Shown: one piece after another, positions 40 to 22,288 of the stretch
Layout: each line of letters starts with the position of its first letter
Position numbering within the stretch: the stretch's first letter is position 1
IMG/VR virus record: IMGVR_UViG_3300042876_000129
Location: 1-24,717 of that record
Length of the DNA stretch: 24,717 bases
Source of the DNA: a virus
Reading direction: 5' to 3' (one strand)
Notes under the pieces: model-generated
Databases searched by the model: none
What the model saw: only the letters and a program-made list of their open reading frames with translations
What the model was told of the DNA's origin: nothing
Position numbers and translations under genes: made by a program

Positions 40-501
40 ATGGGAAACCGAATGAAACCAACAGAACAGAAAAAGACCGAGGGAACCTATCGGGCTGACC
101 GGGATTTGGGCGTAAAAATCATGGCACTTGATAAGATGCCAGCACCTTCAGAAAAATTAAACCTATCCGATGACGCTGTTGGTTTGTGGTATAATTATGG
201 GACTCAGCTAATCATTAATGGATTGATGACATTTTTGGATCTTGTTACTTTTGGCCGTTACTGCCAACTATACGATCAGGCGATTGAAATGAGGAAGGAC
301 ATAAAAGACAAGGGGTACTTTCAAAAAACTCAATCAGGCTATGAACAGGTTAGGCCATGTGTCGGAGTATTAGGATCAACTGAATCTGAAATGTTGAAAT
401 TAGAAGATCGCTTCGGACTGTCTCCAAATAGCAGGGCAAAGATTCCGGCACAAAAACAGGACGATAAAGGCGATGATTTTGATAAGGCACTGAATGCGTA
501 G
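40..501 (+). CDS. Terminase small subunit, P27-like
   Basis: Likely DNA-recognition subunit of the packaging terminase, which binds phage DNA and guides the large subunit that follows. The 153-residue product has the layout of P27-type small terminases: a charged N-terminus, a helical centre with the LWYNYG and GLMTFLD segments, and a C-terminal FGLSPNSRAKI segment matching the family's typical FGLTP-x-SR-x-K ending. I chose the ATG at 40; the frame also has a TTG at 22 and is open to the window edge. A purine-rich GAGGGAGGGG run just upstream of the ATG resembles a ribosome-binding site, unusual in this window. The end overlaps the large subunit start by 8 bases. The assignment rests on motif, size and position; no homology search was possible. 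Confidence 0.85.
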   Translation: MGNRMKPTEQKKTEGTYRADRDLGVKIMALDKMPAPSEKLNLSDDAVGLWYNYGTQLIINGLMTFLDLVTFGRYCQLYDQAIEMRKDIKDKGYFQKTQSGYEQVRPCVGVLGSTESEMLKLEDRFGLSPNSRAKIPAQKQDDKGDDFDKALNA

Positions 502-2113
502 ATTCAACCAATATATTGAGGACGTTATCAGTGGCAGGCAGATCACCGGCAAGCTGATTAAGCTCGCTGTTGATCGGCACATAGCCGACATAACAAAGGG
601 CGAATTTTGGTTCGATGAAAAAGAGGCGGCCCGCGCCGTTCGGTTCATCGAGATTATCAGGCATTGGAAAGGTGAATGGGCTGGGTCACGGATTACGCTC
701 GAACCGCATCAGGTTTTTTATATCGGGCAATTATTCGGATGGAAGCGACCGGACGGAACGCGAAGATTCAGAACATCGTTTAAGGAGGTTGCCCGTAAAA
801 ACGGTAAGACAAGCGAGGCAGCCGGTAAAGCGTTGTACCATATTTCCGGTGACGGGGAGCCGGGCGCTCAGGTCTATTTTGCAGCAACGAAAGAGGAACA
901 GGCCCGGATTGGATTTTCCGATGCCCAGAAGTTTGTCAACGGAACCCCGGAGCTCAGGAAGCGAATTAAGGTAATGACAAAAAGTGTCGTCATGGGTAAT
1001 AGCTTCATGAAACCTTTGGGATCAGACAGCAATACTCAGGACGGTTACGATCCAAGCTGGGGAACGATTGACGAATACCACGAGCACAAAACGGATGAGA
1101 TGCTGAACATTCTGGAAACGGGGATGGGTGCACGCCGTCAGCCGGTGATCGACGTGATAACCACGGCGGGATTTCATAAGGATTACCCATGTTATACGGC
1201 ACTCCGCAAGACTTCGATTGAGATTCTCAAGGGCATTAAGCACGATGAAACCTTGTTGGCACTGATTTATGAACTGGATGCAGAAGATGATTGGCACGAT
1301 CAATCGACCTGGATCAAAAGTAATCCTAATCTGGGCGTATCGGTAAAGTTGGATTTTTTACAAACCCAATTCGTTAAAGCCAAGAACGAGGGCGGTACAA
1401 AAGAGGTGACGTTCCGAACCAAGAACTTAAACCAGTGGACGGATTCAGCCGACACATGGATTCAGGATGAAATCTTTATCAAAGGATCTGAAAAGTTACC
1501 TGACCTATCAGGCAAACAGGTATATTTCGGGTTAGACCTTGCTTCTACTGGTGACATGAACTCGCTTGCTTTGTTTTTTCCGGGTGATCCGGCCTTTGCG
1601 ATTGTCCGGTATTATGTGCCTGAGGACACGATGAGGCAGAGGGTAAAGGATGGAGCCGATCATATCCGGTGGAAAAATGAGGGCTGGTTGAATGTTACGC
1701 CTGGAAATACCACAGATTACGACTTTATTATTGCCGATGCGGTTAACCAGTTGAGTAAGTATAAGGCCGTTAAGTTAGGATACGACCCGTGGAATGCCTC
1801 ACAGACAGCGATTTATTTACAGGACAAAGGGTTTAAGATCGAAGAGGTTAGACAGGGTATTGCTTCGATGGGTGAAGCAACCAAGAAACTGGAAACCTTG
1901 ATCCGAAACGTGAAGTTGATTCATGGCGGCAATCCGATCCTCAGGTGGAACAATTCAAACATCGTGATCAAGAAAGACCCGAACGATAACATCCGAATGG
2001 ATAAAGGCAATTCTACCGGTAAGATTGACGGCATGGTTGCACTGACTATTGCCATTGCTGTATGGATGAGGGATAATGCGAAAACTCCACAATTTAATAT
2101 TAGATTATTATGA
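494..2113 (+). CDS. terL: Terminase large subunit (packaging ATPase-nuclease)
   Basis: Motor ATPase that drives DNA into the prohead and nuclease that cuts the concatemer. The product has 539 residues, normal for the Terminase_1 (HK97/P27-associated) type. The ATPase domain shows a Walker A-like loop VARKNGKT at 99-106 and a Walker B TIDEYHEH at 191-198, with acidic residues D193 and E194. The C-terminal RNase H-fold nuclease shows its expected acidic positions: GLDLAST at 346-352 (D348), GYDPWNA at 429-435 (D431) and KIDGMVAL at 510-517 (D512). The gene overlaps the small subunit by 8 bases and its TGA overlaps the next ATG. Nothing looks broken: both active sites are complete. Confidence 0.96.
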   Translation: MRRFNQYIEDVISGRQITGKLIKLAVDRHIADITKGEFWFDEKEAARAVRFIEIIRHWKGEWAGSRITLEPHQVFYIGQLFGWKRPDGTRRFRTSFKEVARKNGKTSEAAGKALYHISGDGEPGAQVYFAATKEEQARIGFSDAQKFVNGTPELRKRIKVMTKSVVMGNSFMKPLGSDSNTQDGYDPSWGTIDEYHEHKTDEMLNILETGMGARRQPVIDVITTAGFHKDYPCYTALRKTSIEILKGIKHDETLLALIYELDAEDDWHDQSTWIKSNPNLGVSVKLDFLQTQFVKAKNEGGTKEVTFRTKNLNQWTDSADTWIQDEIFIKGSEKLPDLSGKQVYFGLDLASTGDMNSLALFFPGDPAFAIVRYYVPEDTMRQRVKDGADHIRWKNEGWLNVTPGNTTDYDFIIADAVNQLSKYKAVKLGYDPWNASQTAIYLQDKGFKIEEVRQGIASMGEATKKLETLIRNVKLIHGGNPILRWNNSNIVIKKDPNDNIRMDKGNSTGKIDGMVALTIAIAVWMRDNAKTPQFNIRLL

Positions 2114-2311
2114 GCATGTATCAAGGCAATTCAGTAGAAACGGATTTGAACAAAATTATTGAAATCCGGGTTGAGGATGGTGTACAATTCGCATATTTTA
2201 AAAAGGGAAAAACTCCCGCTTCAAATTTGCACCATCGTGAAAGATAAGGTAAATTGTGCCACTGAAGCACATATCAGATTATTTGTTAAACTCACAGACT
2301 CAGAAAAATGA
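2110..2311 (+). CDS. Small unknown gene, apparently frameshifted
   Basis: Two overlapping short frames fill the space after terL. Frame one starts with an ATG that overlaps the terL stop and runs 45 codons to 2247; its first 34 residues, including IIEIRVEDGVQFAYFKKGK, look like ordinary protein. Frame two, one base later, is open from ATG 2177 to the TGA at 2309-2311. Its C-terminal part, including TEAHIRLFVKLTDSEK, also looks like ordinary protein, and its stop overlaps the next ATG (ATGA), the standard junction in this cluster. Joining them by a +1 shift near the A-run at 2208-2212 gives one 66-residue product. That could be an indel, a sequencing error, recoding, or two separate small genes. 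I recognise no family. Confidence 0.5.
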
Positions 2312-2544
2312 AAAAGTTTGGCCTGTATGTAGGTGACAAGTTTATTGCCGAAGTAAAACCGGTTAAAGTTTGGATTTCTGATGCTACTAAATTTTCCGGA
2401 GATTTTGAGTTTTATATGAAACGGCAAACTAAGTGGGGATTACGGTATTATTTTCGTAATGAAATCGGCAAGGTACGTGCAATTTTTCCTAATGAAATTA
2501 AATTTGAATACGGTAAAAAATATCAACTGAAAGGAACATTCTAA
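2308..2544 (+). CDS. Hypothetical protein, 78 residues
   Basis: I do not recognise this protein. It has 78 residues, is rich in Lys, Phe and Tyr, and contains alternating hydrophobic and charged stretches such as KFIAEVKPVKVWI near residues 12-24, which suggests a small beta-rich fold. There is no signal peptide or membrane segment. The ATG overlaps the TGA of the preceding frame, and the final TAA shares a base with the next ATG (TAATG), so it is probably translated together with both neighbours. The place between terminase and portal is typical for small accessory phage genes. The window gives no clue to its function. Confidence 0.65.
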   Translation: MKKFGLYVGDKFIAEVKPVKVWISDATKFSGDFEFYMKRQTKWGLRYYFRNEIGKVRAIFPNEIKFEYGKKYQLKGTF

Positions 2545-2930
2545 TGACAAAACAAACCACGAAACCACGTAAGCCGTACCAGCGAAAGCCGAAATTAAAA
2601 GACGGCGGACTGGTTACTAAACCAGATGGAAGCATTGACCCCAAAAGCGAAATGATTGAGCCGGTTGAAAAATTCGTTATTAAACCCGAATACCGCTATG
2701 AAAAGCACATCCTTAATCTTCAAACCATGCAGGGGTTTTACGATGAATGGATTTCCCGGTTTGCCTATTCCAAAACAAATGAAGATGCCTACGAATCAAC
2801 AGAGATATTTTTCGAGGCGTACTTTGGTAGGCGAAGGTTTAAGAATTACGAATCGTTTGCATCGAGTGTATCACAATGGCTAAAAAAACGCAATGAAAAA
2901 CCCGAAAAAAATACGCAAGCACTTCGCTGA
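2544..2930 (+). CDS. Hypothetical protein with basic N-terminus
   Basis: The product has 128 residues. The first 25 are strongly basic (KPRKPYQRKPKLK), as in many nucleic-acid-binding or packaging-associated tails. The rest is mixed and helical, with an aromatic acidic segment (EIFFEAYFGRRRF, about residues 88-100) followed by YESFASSVSQWL. This FGRRR-x-x-YESF pattern reminds me of small uncharacterised phage proteins, but I cannot name a family. It starts in a TAATG junction with the previous gene, and its last 38 bases overlap the next small gene. No signal peptide or membrane segment is visible. Confidence 0.65.
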   Translation: MTKQTTKPRKPYQRKPKLKDGGLVTKPDGSIDPKSEMIEPVEKFVIKPEYRYEKHILNLQTMQGFYDEWISRFAYSKTNEDAYESTEIFFEAYFGRRRFKNYESFASSVSQWLKKRNEKPEKNTQALR

Positions 2931-3099
2931 TAAGCTAACTAAGTTAATTCAGCAATATCCAGAAGTGGTAAGTATCACATATTCACGACTGGACGGTGTA
3001 ACGGGTGAGAGATTGAATCGCTTTGAGCGATTAAACAATGAATTTAGCTTAAACTTTTATACTCGAAATAATGAAAGCAAAGATATTAGGACACGGTGA
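2893..3099 (+). CDS. Hypothetical protein, 68 residues
   Basis: This is a short, basic frame that bridges two genes: it overlaps the previous one by 38 bases and the next by 29. It is the only open plus-strand frame covering 2931-3070, which is the main reason to accept it. The product has a Lys/Arg-rich start (KNPKKIRKHF) and a central IQQYPEVVSITYSRLDG stretch that looks like a beta strand and turn. No known domain, signal or membrane segment is seen. Such overlaps are normal in this cluster. Function unknown. Confidence 0.5.
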   Translation: MKNPKKIRKHFADKLTKLIQQYPEVVSITYSRLDGVTGERLNRFERLNNEFSLNFYTRNNESKDIRTR

Positions 3100-3784
3100 A
3101 ATCGGTAAAAGTTTACAGGAAGTCTATCAACTTGCCGCAATTGATGTGGCGTGGAAGGATTTAACAGGAGAGCACGGTGGGAATTATTGTGATTTGCTAA
3201 ACATAGCTATTCCGTATAGCGATAGTTTTGTGGAAACAGTTCTGAACGAAATTCTAAATTCGGATGCTAATTATGTCGTTATTCATTCCACCGTTGCTCC
3301 CGGAACGACATCAACAATTAGCGCGCTGACTAACGCCGTTGTGGTTCATTCGCCTGTGATCGGCGTTCACCCAAACTTAACTCAAGGGATACTTACCTTT
3401 AAAAAATGGATTGGGTCGGATGAAGGCGATATTTCTCCAATCATTAAGCACTTTAAAGAAATCGGCATCAGTAGTATCGGGGTGGTTCCATCGGTTGTAA
3501 GCGAGAAGATGAAACTGCTCGACACCACGTATTACGGTCTTTGTCTGGCCTTTAATGCTGAAGCACGGGACTGGTTAGGCGAAAACTATACGGATTGGGT
3601 CGAATATCTGAAGCAGTACAATACAGGTTATCACAGGCTGAATATGCCAAACGTCAGACGGCCATACTTTGAACGTTTAGCCACTCCGATAGGCGGCCAT
3701 TGCATCATGCCGAATGTTGAAATACTGGAAAAATGTCACCCGATGCCAGCACTCGAACAAATTAAAAAGTATGGTAGTCAATAG
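3071..3784 (+). CDS. Nucleotide-sugar dehydrogenase-like protein, short
   Basis: Resembles the NAD-dependent UDP-glucose / UDP-ManNAc / GDP-mannose dehydrogenases, which oxidise nucleotide sugars to uronic acids. The N-terminus has a Rossmann-type GHGEIG loop at 7-12. IHSTVAPGTT at 71-80 and HSPVIGVHPNL at 93-103 match conserved parts of the NAD-binding domain. TPIGGHCIMPN at 205-215 matches the GGxC motif whose Cys (C211 here) is catalytic in the family. At 237 residues the protein is only a little over half the usual length of about 400-450, and it stops soon after this Cys, so the C-terminal UDP-binding domain is missing. It may be a minimal enzyme, a reductase on another substrate, or a degraded copy. 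It is the first gene of the sugar cassette. Confidence 0.7.
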   Translation: MKAKILGHGEIGKSLQEVYQLAAIDVAWKDLTGEHGGNYCDLLNIAIPYSDSFVETVLNEILNSDANYVVIHSTVAPGTTSTISALTNAVVVHSPVIGVHPNLTQGILTFKKWIGSDEGDISPIIKHFKEIGISSIGVVPSVVSEKMKLLDTTYYGLCLAFNAEARDWLGENYTDWVEYLKQYNTGYHRLNMPNVRRPYFERLATPIGGHCIMPNVEILEKCHPMPALEQIKKYGSQ

Positions 3785-4553
3785 TTTCAATTGCGAATTT
3801 GGTTATGAGATGATTTCAGTCATCCCATATGCCCATTGGTTATACGAACGCGGCGAACTCGAGCAAACTACGTCCGGGTTAAGCAGCGAACCGTTTTACT
3901 ATTTTTCACCGCGTCACACGATGAATGCGGAGCCGCGAAGTTGGTACAACGTCTGTAAAATGAACACGCCTAATGCCGACATACACAAATCAGAGCTTGA
4001 CCTATCCCGTTTTTCACCGCCACCGTACCGCGAATACTTCGCGAACGACAAATATCACTTCGATTTGGTGATTTATAACCGGCATAACAACGAATGGCCG
4101 GGCGTTCCTGAGCTGAATCGGCCTATTAATTTCTTTTCATTGGAGCTTTTAAGGGAGATTTTCCGCAATTTTAAGGGAAAAATTCTCTATATCAATGTCG
4201 ATGGAGTGCCCGATTTGTACGATAATGCCCCACCAATACCGTTTTATGACTATGCTTTATGTGGTGAATTTAAGAATATTACGGTAATTCACGACCTAAA
4301 AGAGTCGTTTAACTTGGCACAACTCAAGGCATTTGCGAATTGTCGGCTATTCCTGACCATGAACGGGGGCGGGAGCATCTTAGCTTCTTACTTCGGGGGG
4401 CGTAACATCATTTACACTAATCCTCAAACGGTATACGGCAGAGTTTACCCGCGTGAAAACCAAACGGGCGATTTTACATATTACCATCATTTCGGAGGGT
4501 CTGAAATCATTAACGTACACACTTATAATCAAATACTTAAACTACTATGTTAG
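3771..4553 (+). CDS. Glycosyltransferase-like protein (GT-B type suspected)
   Basis: Probably transfers a sugar from an activated donor; donor and acceptor are unknown. I chose the ATG at 3771 (260 residues) because it begins just before the characteristic start and overlaps the previous gene only slightly; an in-frame ATG at 3714 would lie deep inside that gene. CEFGYEMISVIPYAHWL near residues 7-23 resembles the GEFGWEL-x-P start of some polysaccharide glycosyltransferases. FLTMNGGGSILASYFGGRN near residues 195-215 resembles the Gly-rich donor-binding loop of GT-B enzymes. There is no signal peptide. The end overlaps the methyltransferase by 7 bases. The call depends on these motifs and on the neighbours. 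Confidence 0.6.
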   Translation: MVVNSFNCEFGYEMISVIPYAHWLYERGELEQTTSGLSSEPFYYFSPRHTMNAEPRSWYNVCKMNTPNADIHKSELDLSRFSPPPYREYFANDKYHFDLVIYNRHNNEWPGVPELNRPINFFSLELLREIFRNFKGKILYINVDGVPDLYDNAPPIPFYDYALCGEFKNITVIHDLKESFNLAQLKAFANCRLFLTMNGGGSILASYFGGRNIIYTNPQTVYGRVYPRENQTGDFTYYHHFGGSEIINVHTYNQILKLLC

Positions 4554-5080
4554 AAAGAACAAAATTAATCAATGATCTGATCCAGAAAAACGGGTACAAA
4601 AGCTATCTGGAGATCGGAACAGGCGGCGGAATCAACTTCAAAGAGGTTGATTGTGAGCATAAAATAGGGGTTGATCCAAATAATCCGGCAACTTTTCAGC
4701 AAACATCGGACGATTTCTTTGCCGCCAATCAGGAAACGTTCGATATTATTTTCATCGACGGGTTGCACGTGGCGGAGCAAGTTGAGAAAGACATGGCAAA
4801 TTCGCTCAAAATTCTTAAGAAAGGCGGGGTAATTGTCGTCCATGACTGCCTGCCTGAGATAGAAGAAAGACAGCGACCGGTAAGAATCACTAAAAACTGG
4901 CAGGGTGACGTATGGAAAGCCGTGGTAAGCATGGCGCGTAAGCATCGCAAAATGAAACTACTCGAAATTGAAACGGGCATTGTCCTGTTATGGCCGGGCA
5001 AAAAGACTTATGTCATTCCAGAAGGAGAATTGACATGGGATTGGTTCGTAAAAAACTTTAAATCAATGCTATGTGGATAA
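4547..5080 (+). CDS. SAM-dependent methyltransferase (class I)
   Basis: Likely transfers a methyl group from S-adenosylmethionine, plausibly to a sugar given the neighbouring genes. The 177-residue product is a compact Rossmann-like methyltransferase: motif I YLEIGTGGG at 20-28, an acidic residue after strand 2 in IGVD at 40-43, the FDIIFIDGLH strand-4 segment at 65-74, and GGVIVVHDC at 93-101. The IDG-x-H and VHDC patterns are typical of the Methyltransf_24 group, which is common in polysaccharide clusters. The gene overlaps its upstream neighbour by 7 bases and its downstream neighbour by 10. The fold is clear; the substrate is inferred from context only. Confidence 0.85.
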   Translation: MLERTKLINDLIQKNGYKSYLEIGTGGGINFKEVDCEHKIGVDPNNPATFQQTSDDFFAANQETFDIIFIDGLHVAEQVEKDMANSLKILKKGGVIVVHDCLPEIEERQRPVRITKNWQGDVWKAVVSMARKHRKMKLLEIETGIVLLWPGKKTYVIPEGELTWDWFVKNFKSMLCG

Positions 5081-5991
5081 GTTGGTTAATTAGCAGCGGT
5101 GGAATCTTCGGATCAGTCCGCGAAATGATCGAAACATCGAACGTCCTGGTGGATTTAGGCCATAAGGTCACGATATACACACCGGAAGGGATAGATCACA
5201 AATGGTTGCCATGCAAAGCAACATTCCGGCAAATGGCCGAGCTCAAGCATGACGAACCGGATGTTTTGTTCCTGATGACTACGCCAGAAGAGCCGTATTT
5301 CTCCATTTGGAAGAACAGCAAGGCAAAAATCAAGTCGTATTGTATGATGGGTTACCCCACGGATGCCCTACACAAAGAGCCGGACAAATTTCTATCGGAC
5401 AAACACGATTGGATCGTTCGTAACCATTGGTGTATTTGCGATGGCTCATGGCAACTTCGCGACATGGGACGGTTTAACCCGGATGTGGGCCCGGCTATTG
5501 GTGGGGTTAATCTCCGGCAATTTCACCCGGTGGACGTTCCTAAACGGGTCGATGTGGTTTGGAGCAATGATCCCAGACCCCGGAAGGATTCCAGTACGGT
5601 TGCAAAGGCTATCGTAGGGTTCACGAGTGATTGCTATTTCGGCAAACGGCTTACTCAGGATCAAATGGCCGGATTTCTATGCGAAGGCCGGGTATTTGCA
5701 GATAGTCACGTCCGGGGCGGATGGTGTAACCCCGTAGCGGAGGCGATGGCTTGCGGCGTGCCAGTCGTTTGCACAAATATCCCCTGCAATGAAGATTTTG
5801 CCATACAAGGTAGGACGGCATTGATTGTTGAACCGGGTGACTGGCAGAAAATGAACGAGTATATCAAAATGCTCTTAATGGATTCGGATTTGTATAACGA
5901 TTTGCGGGAAGAGGGGCTCGCACAAATAGCTAAATTCAGCTATGACATTGTAGTGCCCCGCCTTGCAGATGCAATTCAAAAGCACCTATGA
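5071..5991 (+). CDS. Glycosyltransferase, GT4/GT1 group (GT-B fold)
   Basis: A retaining-type glycosyltransferase of the group 1 family by sequence. The N-terminus SWLISSGGIFGSVREMIE matches the Gly-rich acceptor-side loop after the first strand, followed by LVDLGHKVTIYTPEG (about 26-40), the usual start of these enzymes. Near residues 215-235 the segment containing NPVAEAMACGVPVVCTN is the hallmark donor-binding motif (E-x7-E region), followed by GRTALIVEPGD. Length 306 is somewhat short for the family (350-400). The start is inside the end of the methyltransferase and the TGA overlaps the next ATG, so the cassette is tightly coupled. Cytoplasmic; no membrane segment. Donor and acceptor cannot be read from the sequence. 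Confidence 0.88.
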   Translation: MWISWLISSGGIFGSVREMIETSNVLVDLGHKVTIYTPEGIDHKWLPCKATFRQMAELKHDEPDVLFLMTTPEEPYFSIWKNSKAKIKSYCMMGYPTDALHKEPDKFLSDKHDWIVRNHWCICDGSWQLRDMGRFNPDVGPAIGGVNLRQFHPVDVPKRVDVVWSNDPRPRKDSSTVAKAIVGFTSDCYFGKRLTQDQMAGFLCEGRVFADSHVRGGWCNPVAEAMACGVPVVCTNIPCNEDFAIQGRTALIVEPGDWQKMNEYIKMLLMDSDLYNDLREEGLAQIAKFSYDIVVPRLADAIQKHL

Positions 5992-6626
5992 TAAACATAT
6001 TGGTCAGAACCAGCAACCGCCCGATGTACTTCTGGGATTGTATACAAAGCATTCAAAAGCAAACGTATACGGATTACCGGATTATTGTCGGCATTGACGG
6101 CGAAGATTCATACGCAAACTTTTGTCATCCCATCCGATACCCGATGCTTATATCAAACAAAACCTACCTTAAGTCGGCCTATACCTCTATGTTACATTTC
6201 CCGGTTAATCTTTATCTCAACCGATTGATGCAAGAGGTAACTGATGGGTGGGTAATGGTTCTGGATGACGACGATATGTTTGCCGGGCCGGACTCTTTAG
6301 AGTTGATCGCTCGGAACCTTGTCGATACTCATAGCATCATTTATTGGCGGGTTGATATTTGCGGTCGGATTGTTCCTTCAGACAGCAACTTCGGACGGCG
6401 CCCGGTAGTGAAGGATATTTCCGGTATTGGGTTCTGTTTTCACTCGAACTATATCCCGTTACTTCAGCACGACACTTATAAACAAAGCGATTACCGGGTC
6501 GCAGATCGGGCATACTCATTACTTAATCCAATATGGATCGACAAGGTGCTGACCCGGACGCAACGAAGAGAGGGTGATGGTTTCGGAAAGCGCCGGGATA
6601 AGGATTTTGAGAATAAAAGCAGGTAG
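5988..6626 (+). CDS. Glycosyltransferase family 2-like (GT-A fold)
   Basis: Likely inverting glycosyltransferase. The start INILVRTSNRPMYF followed by SIQKQTYTDYRIIVGIDG (21-38) is the classic GT2 beginning, where the nucleotide-sugar is bound. WVMVLDDDDMF at 88-98 contains the metal-binding DxD motif. Length 212 is short but near the core GT-A domain size; no C-terminal membrane anchor is seen, so it is probably soluble. It is the last gene of the sugar cassette and ends 59 bases before the portal gene. Acceptor unknown. A phage virion protein or a host surface glycan are both possible; position inside the structural operon favours the former. Confidence 0.85.
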   Translation: MINILVRTSNRPMYFWDCIQSIQKQTYTDYRIIVGIDGEDSYANFCHPIRYPMLISNKTYLKSAYTSMLHFPVNLYLNRLMQEVTDGWVMVLDDDDMFAGPDSLELIARNLVDTHSIIYWRVDICGRIVPSDSNFGRRPVVKDISGIGFCFHSNYIPLLQHDTYKQSDYRVADRAYSLLNPIWIDKVLTRTQRREGDGFGKRRDKDFENKSR

Positions 6627-6635
6627 GAAATATTT

Positions 6636-6660
6636 TCTTTAAATTACTTAAAGAGGTTTT
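6636..6660 (+). terminator. AT-rich hairpin with T-run before portal
   Basis: In the 59-base gap between the sugar cassette and the portal gene, TCTTTAA (6636-6642) and TTAAAGA (6648-6654) form a perfect 7-bp inverted repeat around a 5-base loop. A TTTT run follows at 6657-6660. It could be a weak terminator or attenuator separating the cassette from the head genes, but the stem has only one G-C pair, so the call is tentative. Confidence 0.3.
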
Positions 6661-6685
6661 CCATTTATAGGAATTACTTTTGGGT

Positions 6686-7960
6686 ATGCCTATAAGTGGA
6701 AAATTTCCGTTTTATGTACCGGAAACAAAAATACTCCGGCAACGGGTCGCTGAACTTGAAAAGCGGAACCTTGAACGTCCGCCGTCCTGGTTGGACGAGA
6801 TGATCCAAAACTACGAAAGCCAATCAGGCATTAAGGTAAGTGAGGAAAGCTCACTAAAATTTGCAGCCGTTTGGTCAGCCGTGAACCTCTTAAGCTCAAG
6901 CGCGGCACAACTCCCCTATCAGCCGTTCAAACGAATACCGAAAGGTAAAGAATTATACAAGGATCATCCTTGCTATAAACTCATTCATGAGTCTCCGAAC
7001 GGATGGATGAACCCGTTTGCATTCAAACAGATGCTTGTCGCGTTTGCCCTACTTTGGGGTAATGGCTATGCAAGGATCAGGAAAGACGCAAGAGAGCGAC
7101 CTATTTCACTTGAGCCTATTCATTCCAGTTTAGTTGATCCAATTCTGATTGAAGGGGTTTTATTTTATCGGATTAACGGTGTTGAGGTCGTTCCTGCTCG
7201 CGACATGATACATTTAATGGGATTTACCCTTAACGGATATATGGGGAAATCACCGATTGAAGTGGCACGGGATAATATCGGGTTAGGATTGGCAGCTCAA
7301 CAATTTGGAAGCACATTTTTCAAGAACGGGGCAAACAGCGAAATGGTATTCAATACCAATGCAACGCTTACCGATGAGCAATATTCGAGGCTGCAAAAAG
7401 TGATTATGTCTCGTCAATCGGGGACCGAAAACGCTCACAAACCGCTATTAGTTGAAGGTGGTGGGTCGGTTACACAACTAACCATCCCGCCAGATCAGGC
7501 ACAATTTATCCAGACGCGGAATTTTCAGGTAAATGAGATTGCCCGTATTTTCAATGTTCCGCCTCATATGATTGGCGACTTGGAGCGCTCTACGAATAAC
7601 AACATTGAACAGCAATCGATTGAGTTTGTCCAATACTCGCTAATGCCGTGGGTCATCCGATTGGAAGAGGAATTTACCCGAAAACTGATTTTCGAGAGCG
7701 AAAAACCGGATATTTTCATCGAAGCCAATGCAGACGGCCTGATGCGGGGCGATGCACAAGCGCGCGCCGCTTACTACAAAATACGATGGGAAATCGGTTC
7801 ACTGTCAGACAATGAAATCCGGGCAAAAGAGAACGATAACCCTTATCCGGGCGGAGACACTTACTATGTACCTGTAAATTATCAAACGGTTGAACGAGCA
7901 CAAAGCAATATTACACAAACCGCCCCAGAGCCTGCAATTGGCGACGGGGATACGAAGTGA
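6686..7960 (+). CDS. Portal protein, HK97-type
   Basis: Forms the dodecameric ring at the capsid vertex through which DNA enters and to which the tail attaches. From the ATG at 6686 the product has 424 residues, normal for HK97-type portals. Typical segments are FAAVWSAVNLLSSSAAQLPY near the start, MIHLMGFTLNGYMGKSPIE in the middle, and IFNVPPHMIGDLERSTNNN followed by EQQSIEFVQYSLMPW, the conserved stem and clip region. A TTG two codons upstream is an alternative start. The C-terminus runs into the overlapping protease frame. Gene order portal-protease-capsid supports the call. Confidence 0.95.
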   Translation: MPISGKFPFYVPETKILRQRVAELEKRNLERPPSWLDEMIQNYESQSGIKVSEESSLKFAAVWSAVNLLSSSAAQLPYQPFKRIPKGKELYKDHPCYKLIHESPNGWMNPFAFKQMLVAFALLWGNGYARIRKDARERPISLEPIHSSLVDPILIEGVLFYRINGVEVVPARDMIHLMGFTLNGYMGKSPIEVARDNIGLGLAAQQFGSTFFKNGANSEMVFNTNATLTDEQYSRLQKVIMSRQSGTENAHKPLLVEGGGSVTQLTIPPDQAQFIQTRNFQVNEIARIFNVPPHMIGDLERSTNNNIEQQSIEFVQYSLMPWVIRLEEEFTRKLIFESEKPDIFIEANADGLMRGDAQARAAYYKIRWEIGSLSDNEIRAKENDNPYPGGDTYYVPVNYQTVERAQSNITQTAPEPAIGDGDTK

Positions 7961-8720
7961 CGAGGGTAAAATATACTTCGATCCTTTCGTTTGGTCTATG
8001 GATCAGGCAAAAAGATATTTGAAGGATAACGGGTTGAGATGGTCAAGTTTTATAAATGCAAAAGACATGGAACGCGGGATTGAAAAAAGGATATTGAACG
8101 CTGAATTTCGGGTAAAAACCGAAGATGGTCAGGACATTGTTGAAGGTCAGGCAGCAGTTGCAGAATCATGGTCGGAAGATTTAGGCGGGTTCCGGGAAAT
8201 GATTATGCCTGGTGCTTTTATGGGTGCTGATATTTCGGATGTTAGGGTACTGAAAAACCATAACCCGGACTTTATTCTTGGAAGAACGACCGCCGGAACT
8301 GCCAAAGTCATACCAACCGAAAGATCATTGGCCTATTCCTATACGGATGGCGGCACAACTTACGGCAAAGACTTACTCATTAGCCTGAGACGGGGCGATG
8401 TTTCACAGTCATCGTTTGCTTTTCGGATTGCTGAAGGTGGTGACAAATGGGAAAGGAACGCGGATGGCAATTACGAGCGAAGGATTTACGCTTTTTCAAA
8501 GATTTACGATGTTTCGCCGGTTACTTTTCCGGCCTATCCTGACACTTCGGTTGCCAAACGGTCAATGGATGCCATTGCTGAAAATGAGGCACTATTGGCT
8601 CAACAGCAAGCTGAACAGGAACAGCGTGACGAGCAAGCCCGGAAAGATCGGGAGGACATCGACAAACGTATATCACAAATTGAAATTAACGAGGCTAATA
8701 GCCTTATCGGACACAAATAA
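7890..8720 (+). CDS. Prohead protease, HK97 type
   Basis: Serine protease that cleaves the capsid protein's N-terminal scaffold during prohead maturation. From residue 66 (KRILNAEFRV) the sequence follows the HK97 protease family: MIMPGAFMG near 105-112, VRVLKNHNPDFILGRT with the likely catalytic His124, and RRGDVSQSSFAFRI with the likely catalytic Ser in the SSF segment near 172-176. A charged Gln/Glu/Arg-rich tail follows, probably coiled coil. The start is unsettled: TTG 7890 (used for the numbering here), TTG 7938, or first ATG 7998. The stretch KIYFDPFVWSMDQAKRYL before the ATG looks protein-like, favouring an upstream non-ATG start that overlaps the portal end. Confidence 0.9.
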   Translation: MNEHKAILHKPPQSLQLATGIRSDEGKIYFDPFVWSMDQAKRYLKDNGLRWSSFINAKDMERGIEKRILNAEFRVKTEDGQDIVEGQAAVAESWSEDLGGFREMIMPGAFMGADISDVRVLKNHNPDFILGRTTAGTAKVIPTERSLAYSYTDGGTTYGKDLLISLRRGDVSQSSFAFRIAEGGDKWERNADGNYERRIYAFSKIYDVSPVTFPAYPDTSVAKRSMDAIAENEALLAQQQAEQEQRDEQARKDREDIDKRISQIEINEANSLIGHK

Positions 8721-8729
8721 ATAAACAAA

Positions 8730-9986
8730 ATGAACTTAAAAGACTTGAAAGAAAAGAGGGCCGCTAAGGCTACGCAAATCAAAGATTTGCGTGACAAACT
8801 TGAGGCCGAAAAACGCGGTTTAACCGCAGAGGAAAGAACCCAATTCGATGCTTTGGGGGCCGACATTGACATGATTGATGGTGACATTACCCGTGAACAG
8901 CGGGCTGAAGAGATCCTAAAATCACAGGCCGTTGTAGCTGAGGAAAATCGTCAGGTGGTTGGTGGGAAATCGAAAGAGGAAATCCGCGAAAAAGCCAATG
9001 ACGCTTTACGGAAATTCATCATGTTTCGCGCTTTCGGACGTGGTTCTGAACCGGACATGAGAATCCTTACCGATCCATCACTCAACCCATTCCCGGAACT
9101 CCGTACCAACGTACAGAGCACGACCGATGCAAAAGGCGGGTTTATGATTCCCGAAGGATTCAGTAACGAACTGGCCATTGCAGAAAAAATGTGGGGCGGG
9201 ATGGAAAGCGTTTCAAGGATCATCACCACTCAGTCCGGGAATGATATTCCGTGGCCGGCTGCAAATGATACCTCGAACGTGGCCTATCAGGTTTCAGAAG
9301 CTGCCGACCTGAACACTTCAGCAGTTGACGTAACTTTTGCCAAAGCCCTGACCTTAAAGGCTTACAAATGGTCGTCTGGCTTGGTGAAGATTACCGAGGA
9401 AATCTTTGAAGATTCCTATTTCAACATTAACCAGATTCTCGCTGATCTTTTCGGTATTCGTATGGGTCGCGGCTTGAATGCTGCCTACACGACCGGAGCC
9501 GGAACCACGACGATTTCTGGCGTGGTGACCGGTGCAACCGATTCGGGTATTTCCGGAGTTGGCGCCGCAGCCATTACCTATGCCAACTTGGTCGATCTGC
9601 TTCATTCGGTTGATCCGGCTTATCGTATGAGAGCCCGGTTTATGTTCAACGATTCAACGCTGGCTTACCTAAGAAAGATTGTCGATGGTGACAGCAAACC
9701 GTTATGGCAACCGGCTATTACCGCTGGAGTACCTGACACGATTCTGGGATATCAGTACACGATCAACCAGGATGTCGCTTCTATCGGAGCATCGGCCAAA
9801 TCGGTTCTCTTCGGAGATTTCCAGAATTACCTGATCCGCAAAGTTCGCGGCGACCGCTTCAAAATTCTGCTTGAGCGTTATGCTGAGCTGGATGAAGTGG
9901 CAATGGTATTGCTTCGCCGGACTGATGGCCAGTTGTTGGATGCAGGGATGCACCCGGTTAAGTATTTAACTCATGCAGCTTCCTAA
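8730..9986 (+). CDS. Major capsid protein, HK97 fold
   Basis: Shell protein of the icosahedral head. The 418 residues have the standard layout: an N-terminal charged coiled-coil scaffold (delta domain) of roughly 105 residues beginning NLKDLKEKRAAKATQIK, then the mature domain with QSTTDAKGGFMIPEGF (about 127-142), the usual start of the N-arm/E-loop region. Next come VSEAADLNTSAVDVTFAKAL and KITEEIFEDS, typical of the P and E-loop parts, and a C-terminal VRGDRFKILLERYAELDEVA. Cleavage by the upstream protease probably falls between the scaffold and the QSTTDAKGG segment. Nine bases separate it from the protease, and a strong hairpin follows the stop. Confidence 0.96.
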   Translation: MNLKDLKEKRAAKATQIKDLRDKLEAEKRGLTAEERTQFDALGADIDMIDGDITREQRAEEILKSQAVVAEENRQVVGGKSKEEIREKANDALRKFIMFRAFGRGSEPDMRILTDPSLNPFPELRTNVQSTTDAKGGFMIPEGFSNELAIAEKMWGGMESVSRIITTQSGNDIPWPAANDTSNVAYQVSEAADLNTSAVDVTFAKALTLKAYKWSSGLVKITEEIFEDSYFNINQILADLFGIRMGRGLNAAYTTGAGTTTISGVVTGATDSGISGVGAAAITYANLVDLLHSVDPAYRMRARFMFNDSTLAYLRKIVDGDSKPLWQPAITAGVPDTILGYQYTINQDVASIGASAKSVLFGDFQNYLIRKVRGDRFKILLERYAELDEVAMVLLRRTDGQLLDAGMHPVKYLTHAAS

Positions 9987-10023: not shown

Positions 10024-10596
10024 ATGAGAAAATTAATCACAGCACCCACGACCGAACCGATAACCACCGCGGAGGCTAAAATCTATCTAAAAGTAGACGA
10101 CAGCACCGAAGATGCGTTAATCGCCGTCCTGATTAAGGCCGTCCGTATGGCAGCCGAAAAGTATATGGGTCGCGCTTTGATTACCCAGACATGGGAGGCA
10201 TCGTTTGATGAGTTCCCGGATTGCGATGAGGATTGGACTTTTGAACTCTACACATGCCCGGTTTCAAAGATTAATACACTCAAATATTACGATGCCTCCG
10301 ATGTTTTGGCTACGTTGGCCACAACGGTATATTTACCTGACTATGTTAGTGAACCGTGCCGGGTCGGATTAGCTTATGGTCAATCATGGCCGTCTATCTC
10401 AGGTCGGCAAAATAGTGTAGTCATTAATTACGAATGTGGTTATGGTGCGGCTTCTGTCGTGCCGGATTTGATTAAGGCGGGTATGTATCTTCATTTGGGA
10501 CACTTGTACGAAAATCGTCAGGATGTCACTAAAGAAAAAATGAACGAGTTACCGATGGGATCGCGCTCACTATACGATATGTACCGTGTCTATTAA
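10024..10596 (+). CDS. Head-tail connector, gp6-like adaptor
   Basis: Probably forms the adaptor ring under the portal. The 190-residue product starts with ITAPTTEPITTAEAKIYLKV, followed by a helical segment with ALIAVLIKAVRMAAEKYMGRALITQTWE. This is the standard opening of the HK97 gp6 / phiE125 gp8 connector families, where residues 10-50 form the packed helices. The middle holds the QSWPSISGRQNSVVINYECGYG segment, also typical, and the C-terminus has a helix with KAGMYLHLGHLYENRQD. Start: ATG three bases after the capsid terminator's T-run. It overlaps the next gene by 11 bases. Confidence 0.87.
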   Translation: MRKLITAPTTEPITTAEAKIYLKVDDSTEDALIAVLIKAVRMAAEKYMGRALITQTWEASFDEFPDCDEDWTFELYTCPVSKINTLKYYDASDVLATLATTVYLPDYVSEPCRVGLAYGQSWPSISGRQNSVVINYECGYGAASVVPDLIKAGMYLHLGHLYENRQDVTKEKMNELPMGSRSLYDMYRVY

Positions 10597-11401
10597 AGTT
10601 CTTTGTCTTACAGCTTTATGGCAGCGTCCCGAAATTACGGAGATCTGTTTTAGGGGTCTTTGTCGGCTTCGGGAGGAAGATGGTTTTGAACTGACCGCTT
10701 TGGCCGTTCATTCTGGCGGGTTTGATGAATTATGCCATTTGTATGATGTGATTCCGGTTGAGCATCGAAATTTACCGCTTGGCGAAAAGTGGAATTTCGG
10801 GCTGAAAGAAGCATTGAAATACGATTGGGATTATTTGTTGACGCTTGGATCGGACGACTTGTTGAGCCGTGAACTTCTTCGGACGTACACATGGCAAGAC
10901 GAAGCGGCGGGACTTAACCGATGCGGGGTGGTCGACACGCTGACCGGGCAAACAGCGATCTTTGAAAATAATTACGCGATAGGATGCGGGCGGGTAATTC
11001 GCCGCGATGTGATAGAAAGGATGGGTGACATGGTTACCGTGAAATACCGGGATTGTTACGTGGGTCCTTTTGGTACAATCACACCTGGCAAAGCAATTAC
11101 CATTTCCAGACATTTCCTGACCCGCGTACAAGGGCAAACGGAATTGATTTCTGAACGCAAAGGAACCCCAAAATTATGGGGTGACGACTTGAATCAGGGA
11201 TTAGATTATAGCTCAGATTGTTTACTTAATGCTAACGGGGTGATTCAAAAAATTTATCCGTCCGATAAGATTTTAGCTTTAGACCTCAAAAGCAATGTAA
11301 ACATCTGGCCGTTTGACCATTACACAAGAAAAGATTTTGTTATTGATTGGCTTTCAAAAGAAGAAGAAGATGCAATTAGGCGACTTAGATCGAAGGATTA
11401 G
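10586..11401 (+). CDS. Glycosyltransferase family 2-like inside connector operon
   Basis: Predicted sugar transferase with a GT-A-like core. The 271-residue product starts SIKVLCLTALWQRPEITEIC, similar to the GT2 first strand and helix; PLGEKWNFGLKEALKYDWDYL at 65-85 matches the conserved helix before the DxD strand; and LTLGSDDLL at 86-94 supplies the metal-binding acidic residues (D90, D91). The C-terminal half is unfamiliar. The start is a GTG overlapping the connector gene by 11 bases, and the end overlaps the next connector gene by 32 bases, so it is translated within the head-tail operon. This unusual place suggests it acts on a virion component; acceptor and donor unknown. Confidence 0.75.
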   Translation: MSIKVLCLTALWQRPEITEICFRGLCRLREEDGFELTALAVHSGGFDELCHLYDVIPVEHRNLPLGEKWNFGLKEALKYDWDYLLTLGSDDLLSRELLRTYTWQDEAAGLNRCGVVDTLTGQTAIFENNYAIGCGRVIRRDVIERMGDMVTVKYRDCYVGPFGTITPGKAITISRHFLTRVQGQTELISERKGTPKLWGDDLNQGLDYSSDCLLNANGVIQKIYPSDKILALDLKSNVNIWPFDHYTRKDFVIDWLSKEEEDAIRRLRSKD

Positions 11402-21706: not shown

Positions 21707-22288
21707 ATGAAACGATTGATCTTCATACTGCTAATTTGCGCCGCCTGTTCTAAAGAGGAACCGCAATACTTTACCGTGACCCATCCGAAAGGGATCAGGA
21801 CGTGTAACATGGTTCCGATGCCAAACGGTAGAACCGGACTGAAATACCGGATCAGGTTCACAGAAAGTTGCCTATACCCAGAACTGCCAAACTCGAGCAT
21901 TACGGGCAAGAACGAAAATTCCAGCTGGAACAAACTTGTTTACATCGGGGCGGCCAATCCGCATTACAAAGGCGCAAACTTCGGATGGAGGCACTACCAA
22001 AACAGACTGCAACTCGCTGCCCGGATTTATGACAACGACACCGGGGACGCCTTGAATCATGTCGTATTATGGGAAAACGATATTAACATCAATGTTTGGT
22101 ACGAACTGGAACAACGGAACCTAAACGGTCGCCATCAATGGATTTTTAACGGGCTTATCGTGGCCGAATACGATGAAACCGTACCGAATGACTGGTTATC
22201 GGCTCCGTACTTCGGCGGCGGGGACGGCTTACCGTGGCAGGGAAACGTTCCGAATCAGGACATAACTTTTAACATCCAGATACTATGA
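21707..22288 (+). CDS. Lipoprotein with lectin-like jelly-roll domain
   Basis: A 193-residue predicted lipoprotein: a hydrophobic start MKRLIFILLICAAC followed by SKEEP, with Cys14 as the likely lipid-modified residue. Acidic/Lys residues right after the Cys resemble the Bacteroidota surface-export signal. The mature part is rich in Trp, Tyr and Asn and beta-rich. Segments such as NRLQLAARIYDNDTG, NVWYELEQRNLNGRHQWIFNG and APYFGGGDGLPW recall concanavalin-like folds of polysaccharide lyases and glucan-binding proteins, but I see no certain catalytic residues. It is 22 bases after the fibre and overlaps the next gene by 4 bases. It might change the cell surface or exclude other phages; function is unproven. 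Confidence 0.65.
   Translation: MKRLIFILLICAACSKEEPQYFTVTHPKGIRTCNMVPMPNGRTGLKYRIRFTESCLYPELPNSSITGKNENSSWNKLVYIGAANPHYKGANFGWRHYQNRLQLAARIYDNDTGDALNHVVLWENDININVWYELEQRNLNGRHQWIFNGLIVAEYDETVPNDWLSAPYFGGGDGLPWQGNVPNQDITFNIQIL

Follow-up and report, generated by a model that had tools for sequence, protein, structure and literature searches.

A five-gene sugar cassette in a variable slot between the terminase and portal genes of a probable Bacteroidota phage

Virion glycosylation has been described in Che8-type mycobacteriophages (Freeman 2023, as cited in PMC11256854 and PMC12619734), and the transferase genes of the Che8-related phage Maravista are located close to the 3' end of its genome (PMC11256854). 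In gtrABC serotype conversion, genes of temperate phages variably change a surface glycan. The Gratiaviridae, a group of gut phages, carry glycosyltransferase, ATPase, and HipA kinase genes in their late region, and the authors propose capsule modification (PMC8008677). In the Cellulophaga phage phi17:1, gp41-gp42 encode a Methyltransf_24 protein and an overlapping glycosyltransferase between the head morphogenesis and protease genes. Like genes occur in phi18:1, which is cultured and for which infection proteomics by mass spectrometry exists (PMC13288928).

Here we describe a cassette of five plus-strand open reading frames (ORFs) at positions 3071-6626 of a 24,717-nt stretch of virus DNA (IMG/VR virus record IMGVR_UViG_3300042876_000129, positions 1 to 24,717; hereafter the window). 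The host of this phage is probably a member of the Bacteroidota. As in the Che8-type phages, a tailed phage encodes its own glycosyltransferases and the proposed target is a capsid or tail protein. Unlike those systems, the set predicted here from gene sequences numbers four to five enzymes, among them a dehydrogenase-like protein and a methyltransferase, and fills a variable terL-portal slot in what are probably Bacteroidota phages. The cassette differs from gtrABC in having no GtrA, membrane glycosyltransferase, or flippase, and in sitting in a head operon. The Gratiaviridae likewise have a sugar gene inside the virion-gene region, but it is a single glycosyltransferase beside the ATPase and HipA kinase genes, with no cassette and no methyltransferase. 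The phi17:1 and phi18:1 genes include a distant relative of the methyltransferase found here, although they number only two, involve the TOD1/MUCI70 glycosyltransferase family, occupy another place in the operon, and are annotated as encoding a DNA methylase. Finally, bacterial surface-polysaccharide loci also hold a family of the cassette (GTB, see below) beside GT2, GT4, GT11, Wzx-type, and exporter genes; those loci contain membrane export genes, whereas the phage cassettes contain none.

A preliminary description of this DNA had placed five sugar-type genes between terminase and portal, and the ORFs, their Pfam matches, and their relatives bear this out. The upstream flank is terL (494-2113, plus strand), which encodes an HK97-type large terminase subunit (Pfam TerL_nuclease, E 6e-43; TerL_ATPase, E 5e-30), and the downstream flank is the portal gene (6680-7960, plus strand; Pfam Phage_portal, E 8.5e-102). 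The cassette lies in this interval but does not directly adjoin terL, because three small ORFs (2308-3099) intervene. One of these (2544-2930, plus strand) encodes a conserved small protein at the slot border, with relatives in the slots of five related records (L002, L248, L249, L251, and L254) and no Pfam or PHROG family match over the cut-off. Neighbouring cassette ORFs overlap by at most 14 nt, given a corrected start for GTB. The cassette is inside the late head operon, as proposed: no plus-strand terminator-like site was found in 1900-8800, and hence none from terL to portal.

The first gene, DH (3071-3784, plus strand), encodes a short protein with weak but repeated matches to NDP-sugar dehydrogenases. 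It matched the PHROG UDP-glucose dehydrogenase (E 9e-5), and its profile matched UDP-glucose 6-dehydrogenase (E 2e-4) and UDP-ManNAcA dehydrogenase (E 0.003) in the PDB. The GxGxxG motif of NAD-binding Rossmann domains (here G-x-G-E-I-G) and a GGHC motif are invariant in three DH sequences, which is a match at the motif level only. The DH score for NCBIfam TIGR03026 is far below the cut-off of that family, and the relative in L253, a Bacteroidetes prophage, matches the Pfam NAD-binding domain under the cut-off (E 0.017-0.033). Full-length NDP-sugar dehydrogenases have about 400 residues and a C-terminal NDP-binding domain. DH ends at 237 residues and the profile match stops at position 274 of 413; its predicted layout comprises the NAD-binding and central domains and leaves no room for the C-terminal domain, which is absent. 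DH is 58% identical to its relative in L248 and 53% to that in L253.

The second gene, GTB (3771-4553, plus strand), encodes a putative glycosyltransferase. We place its start at 3771 rather than 3714 because GTB relatives begin there, and the overlap with DH is then 14 nt. GTB had no match in Pfam, PHROG, NCBIfam, or the PDB, including a search of the PDB with the GTB profile, and the assignment rests on its relatives in polysaccharide loci. Identity is 49-65% with the proteins of L251, L253, and L254. More distant relatives occur in Bacteroidota polysaccharide loci and in a single fusion protein, where GT2, GT4, and GT2 domains are also present. The neighbours of the bacterial GTB family are GT2, GT11, GT4, Wzx-type, Wzz-like, ABC-exporter, and UDP-galactopyranose-mutase genes. 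The preliminary GT-B fold was examined with AlphaFold, which gave a low-confidence model of GTB (pLDDT 35.7), and by profile search, which gave no match. Models of DH and GTB from two-sequence alignments had a mean pLDDT near 36-38 and were unusable. Single-protein searches of viral contigs and phage records found no direct relatives of DH or GTB.

The remaining three genes have Pfam matches. MT (4547-5080, plus strand) encodes a Methyltransf_24-type methyltransferase (E 2e-11), 73% identical to its L253 relative, and a weaker relative sits paired with a glycosyltransferase in Cellulophaga phage head operons. We dropped the PHROG label of DNA methyltransferase, because the Pfam family is Methyltransf_24; the related Cellulophaga genes carry the same label. 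MT may act on a sugar rather than on protein. GT4 (5071-5991, plus strand) matches Glycos_transf_1 (E 4e-13; 49.7 bits, cut-off 26.4) and is 84% identical to its L253 relative. GT2 (5988-6626, plus strand) has a DDDD motif and matches Glycos_transf_2 (E 4e-6) with 27.2 bits against a cut-off of 23.3; its relatives in L251 and L253, 58% and 60% identical, score 26.3 and 22.1, the latter just under.

The prophage L253 carries all five cassette genes together, with 53-84% protein identity to those of the window, in the order GTB-MT-GT4-GT2-DH. The TerL upstream differs from that of the window (phrog_2 vs phrog_9), as does the portal downstream, which is convergent (phrog_156 vs phrog_12), and the two phages have essentially no virion gene in common. 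The TerL and portal proteins of this prophage are unrelated to those of the window, so the cassette is not bound to a single capsid protein. Between the two cassettes, 52-67% of third codon positions have changed, which is near saturation, and the identity of the proteins despite this change points to selection on them. Recent transfer of the cassette between the window and L253 is ruled out by the third positions and by a longest identical DNA stretch of 18 bases. Of 395 Bacteroidota genomes searched with DH and GT4 profiles, only the one that bears the prophage matched at full strength; DH had three more matches, all of them weak. In L251, GTB and GT2 are kept and a GT-D-type gene replaces MT and GT4. 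We conclude that the five genes are a real unit with shared inheritance. The description of a glycan-type gene set also holds. The genes keep company across phages, and no membrane segments were predicted in the five proteins, nor in those encoded in the slot elsewhere in the window clade.

Sister phages differ in what fills this slot. The closest TerL relative, L002 (81% identity; 58% for L248 and L251), shares with L248 a sugar set different from that of the window: a DUF2334 plus DXD glycosyltransferase fusion and two GT2-like genes, with an FkbM methyltransferase in L002. The slot of L249 holds GTx-like and sulfotransferase genes, and that of L250 holds GTx-like and ATP-PPase genes. In most of the 85 loci with both terL and portal, the distance between them is less than 750 bp. 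A TerL alignment search found only L002 again, with few, poorly placed patterns. Small glycan-making kits therefore seem to be swapped among these phages at one slot.

Further downstream, between the head-tail adaptor and closure genes, lies a gene for a GT-A-like protein, GTx (10586-11401, plus strand). Neither GTx nor the slot variation between sister phages had been flagged in the preliminary description. GTx homologues were found in six of nine records searched. Those of L002 (69% identity), L055 and L248 (52%), and L250 (38%) lie in the head-tail connector region, next to the major capsid protein (MCP) gene in L250. Between L002 and the window, GTx is conserved to a degree like that of MCP (64%), portal (68%), and adaptor (71%). 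It is present in L002, L248, and L250 while their slot content varies. GTx has a GSDD motif, of which G-S-x-D is invariant across six relatives, and its best PDB profile match is weak (3bcv, a putative glycosyltransferase; E only 0.028). Around 39 non-redundant GTx-like proteins, PHROG matches among the neighbours were too few to show a usual structural-gene neighbourhood. GTx is a candidate first transferase.

Our best model, which we favour tentatively, is that GTx begins a glycan on a virion protein and that the cassette, a kit working in the cytoplasm, extends it. A compact pathway, expressed late from the variable terL-portal slot, would build or extend a short glycan. GTx, constant in the clade, would start the glycan; soluble DH would make or oxidise a sugar in the cytoplasm, GTB, GT4, and GT2 would add sugars in turn, and MT would supply a methylation step. 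Sister phages would then differ in glycan type according to the cassette in the slot. More loosely, we consider it possible that Bacteroidota phages have a two-part virion-glycan system, in which a head-linked, backbone-specific first glycosyltransferase is combined with alternative extension cassettes in the terL-portal slot, giving related phages different, serotype-like coats, and in which entire cassettes move from one phage to another that is unrelated. L253 has essentially none of the virion genes of the window and no GTx relative, so there the virion acceptor would differ and another first enzyme would be needed.

Since L253 and the window share almost no other gene, a strong rival, though one we regard as somewhat doubtful, is that the cassette changes a glycan on the surface of the host (capsule, LPS, or lipid-linked precursor), either late in infection or from a prophage, and blocks re-adsorption and superinfection. 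A shared host substrate would be the simplest common target for a cassette also found in an integrated prophage with unrelated head genes, and the surface-polysaccharide loci that hold GTB relatives in Bacteroidota fit this reading. Serotype-like variation would suit an adsorption arms race, and the Gratiaviridae late-region glycosyltransferase has such a proposed role (PMC8008677). However, the clade cassettes have no GtrA or membrane anchor; the GtrA flippase family PF04138 was absent from eight records, which are incomplete, with the control positive in seven genomes. The cassette is also embedded in a virion-building module, within its late head operon, and GTx is conserved along with head genes, both of which speak against a host target.

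It is unlikely that MT methylates proteins or small molecules and that the five enzymes yield a small glycosylated metabolite, or unrelated modifications, rather than one glycan. Methyltransf_24 names no substrate, and methylated virion proteins are found in Cellulophaga phi18:1, which bears a distant MT relative (PMC13288928), but MT adjoins glycosyltransferase genes in the window, L253, and phi17:1. We consider it very improbable that the enzymes put sugars on phage DNA against restriction. In DNA glycosylation the acceptor base is usually made by a thymidylate-synthase-type hydroxymethylase, and this family (PF00303) was absent from eight window-clade records, which are incomplete, with the control positive in nine genomes. 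Viruses are known to encode glycosyltransferases that hypermodify their DNA with a variety of glycans (Pyle 2024, as cited in PMC12619734), but in bacteria the GTB relatives belong to polysaccharide loci. Least probable of all is passenger cargo without a phage role, retained by chance at a site that tolerates it. The small terL-portal spacing of most relatives suggests that slot content is dispensable for this general phage type, but all five proteins are strongly conserved against near-saturated third positions.

Whichever the target, such kits can be sought in sequence data by way of the GTB family and the slot, and cultured Cellulophaga phages, whose infection has already been followed by mass spectrometry, carry a distant MT relative. 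If the host is the target, the cassette would be a surface-changing kit of several genes that is placed in a late operon and lacks the usual membrane parts. If instead the virion is the target, as we favour, virion glycosylation would reach beyond actinobacteriophages, and these phages would have an exchangeable coat chemistry, with surface glycans that vary like bacterial serotypes.

The window is a linear viral record of 24.7 kb in which terS opens a late gene run on the + strand, followed by terL (494-2113) and three small ORFs. The preliminary description had placed a cassette of five sugar genes at 3071-6626, and all five were found there as described: DH (3071-3784), GTB (3771-4553), MT (4547-5080), GT4 (5071-5991) and GT2 (5988-6626). 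Downstream on the same strand lie the portal gene (6680-7960), then protease, major capsid and head-tail adaptor genes. GTx, a GT-A-like gene (+, 10586-11401) that was not part of the earlier finding, sits between the adaptor and head-closure genes, with the tail genes further on. A scan of 1900-8800 detected no terminator-like sites on the + strand, and GC content in the cassette genes (0.43-0.49) was similar to that of the backbone.

Pfam supported the MT, GT4 and GT2 assignments, and no membrane segments were found in the cassette proteins. DH gave weak matches to nucleotide-sugar dehydrogenases by several routes and retains GxGxxG and GGHC motifs across three relatives. At 237 residues it is too short to hold the C-terminal NDP-binding domain, and we therefore rejected the name of normal UDP-sugar dehydrogenase. 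The start of GTB was set at 3771, the better choice, because its relatives begin there. GTB had no family match; with a profile, remote relatives turned up in 4 of the 395 Bacteroidota genomes searched, in addition to a prophage-bearing one. Loci of these relatives include GT11, GT4, Wzx-type and Wzz-like genes; another setting pairs GT2 genes with an ABC exporter, and one relative, 1630 residues long, has GT2, GT4 and GT2 domains and adjoins a UDP-galactopyranose mutase. Because its distant relatives occupy such bacterial loci, we read GTB by association as a putative polysaccharide-type glycosyltransferase.

All five genes recurred in L253, a prophage within a Bacteroidetes MAG whose contig also carries an integrase and host-type genes. 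Protein identities to the window were 63% (GTB), 73% (MT), 84% (GT4), 60% (GT2) and 53% (DH), in that gene order, and the L253 cassette lies between TerL and a convergent portal, both of families other than those in the window. The strict-threshold GT4 match in the Bacteroidota phylum sample fell in the prophage-bearing genome only. Outside the cassette, we found one weak match between window and prophage contig, a lipoprotein-like pair (21707-22288 and L256:9337-9909 (-); 24% identity, E 1e-6). Partial sets also occur: the related locus L251 retains GTB (65%) and GT2 (58%), with a gene of GT-D type in the place of MT and GT4, and L254 has GTB (49%) plus a GTx-like gene next to the portal. From these comparisons, we conclude that the five genes form a unit, and, because 52-67% of third positions differ between window and L253 while the proteins stay conserved, that their association is old and under selection.

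The terL-portal interval holds different genes in close relatives. L002 has the TerL closest to the window's (81%), and the two intervals share only a small border gene and no cassette gene. L002 and L248 share a different set: a DUF2334-glycosyltransferase fusion (698 and 682 residues, 59% identity) plus another two genes resembling GTs (51% and 60%); L248 additionally carries DH (58%). The L249 interval holds a GTx-like gene, a sulfotransferase and putative deacetylase-like and ATP-PPase-like proteins, and in L250 a PP-loop ATPase accompanies a GTx-like gene and a second protein resembling glycosyltransferases; family-less proteins were named by reading their sequences. In 85 loci that pattern scans showed to hold both genes, the terL-portal distance was <=750 bp in nearly all and >2.9 kb only in L195, L002/L101 (a single contig), L204 (L249) and L005 (L250), in a sample that was not random (L005 and L101 were retrieved by a glycosyltransferase motif and L002 by TerL, while L195 and L204 entered through the portal motif alone). 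The interval is modular, and its differences probably reflect swapping, or possibly differential loss from an ancestor carrying both sets.

The border protein (2544-2930, ~100 residues with a conserved core) has relatives in L002, L248, L249, L251 and L254, on either flank of the sugar genes. L248 has an RNA ligase within the interval and a radical SAM protein just ahead of terS (L248:8614-9507 (-) and L248:11568-12914 (-)). Its TerL (L248:9504-11123 (-)) looks mosaic, with an N-terminal ATPase part very near the window and L002 and a nuclease part far less so. Reverse transcriptases 56% identical to each other occur in the L195 interval (L195:3759-4751 (-)) and in the L253 prophage (L256:10211-11176 (-)), each neighbouring a similar 100-residue protein, and are possibly diversity-generating retroelements. 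Two similar proteins adjoin the L195 copy (4920-5811), and L258:13669-14172 is related to both.

Identity of GTx to its counterparts was 69% for L002, 52% for L055/L248 and 38% for L250, a divergence rate resembling that of the head genes. A profile search found it in 6 of 9 records; L195 (a distant record), L251 (a short fragment) and the L253 genome gave no match. It had no Pfam match and reached a solved putative glycosyltransferase at E 0.028 only. Among wider viral contigs, GTx-like proteins were not found mainly next to structural genes. From its constancy and place, we infer that GTx is a candidate first enzyme.

We propose that the cassette is a late-expressed, cytoplasmic, glycan-making kit. 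Mycobacteriophages are known to glycosylate their virions (Freeman 2023, cited in PMC12619734 and PMC11256854). The late head operon, the constant transferase among connector genes and the lack of membrane parts lead us to predict, tentatively, that the virion is the target. That reading is somewhat more likely than action on the host surface, a serious rival to which the polysaccharide-type relatives of GTB and the carriage of the cassette by a prophage with unrelated head genes point; late-region glycosyltransferases of Gratiaviridae have been proposed to alter the host surface (PMC8008677). A role in DNA modification is unlikely: no thymidylate-synthase-type base hydroxymethylase was found in 8 window-clade records, which are fragments. 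Virion-side and host-side facts could both be accounted for by a model in which a fit to the acceptor protein is required of the first transferase alone, leaving the extension kit portable.

In cultured Cellulophaga phages, a gene whose product is distantly related to MT (35% over 86 residues) overlaps a glycosyltransferase gene within the head operon; it is annotated as a DNA methylase, with Methyltransf_24 as its Pfam result. At NC_021795.1 20251-20718, the DNA methylase in the structural module of these phages scored as Methyltransf_24. For phi18:1, the genome paper counts a DNA methyltransferase within the structural module and, for the glycosyltransferase of that module, names LPS or phage DNA as possible substrates (PMC11946311), and the gp40 DNA methylase was detected in infected cells (PMC13288928); the phi18:1 papers disagree, with four DNA methyltransferases against no predicted methyltransferase (PMC11946311, PMC13288928). 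We consider the Cellulophaga phage system the best testing ground for the glycan-kit idea.
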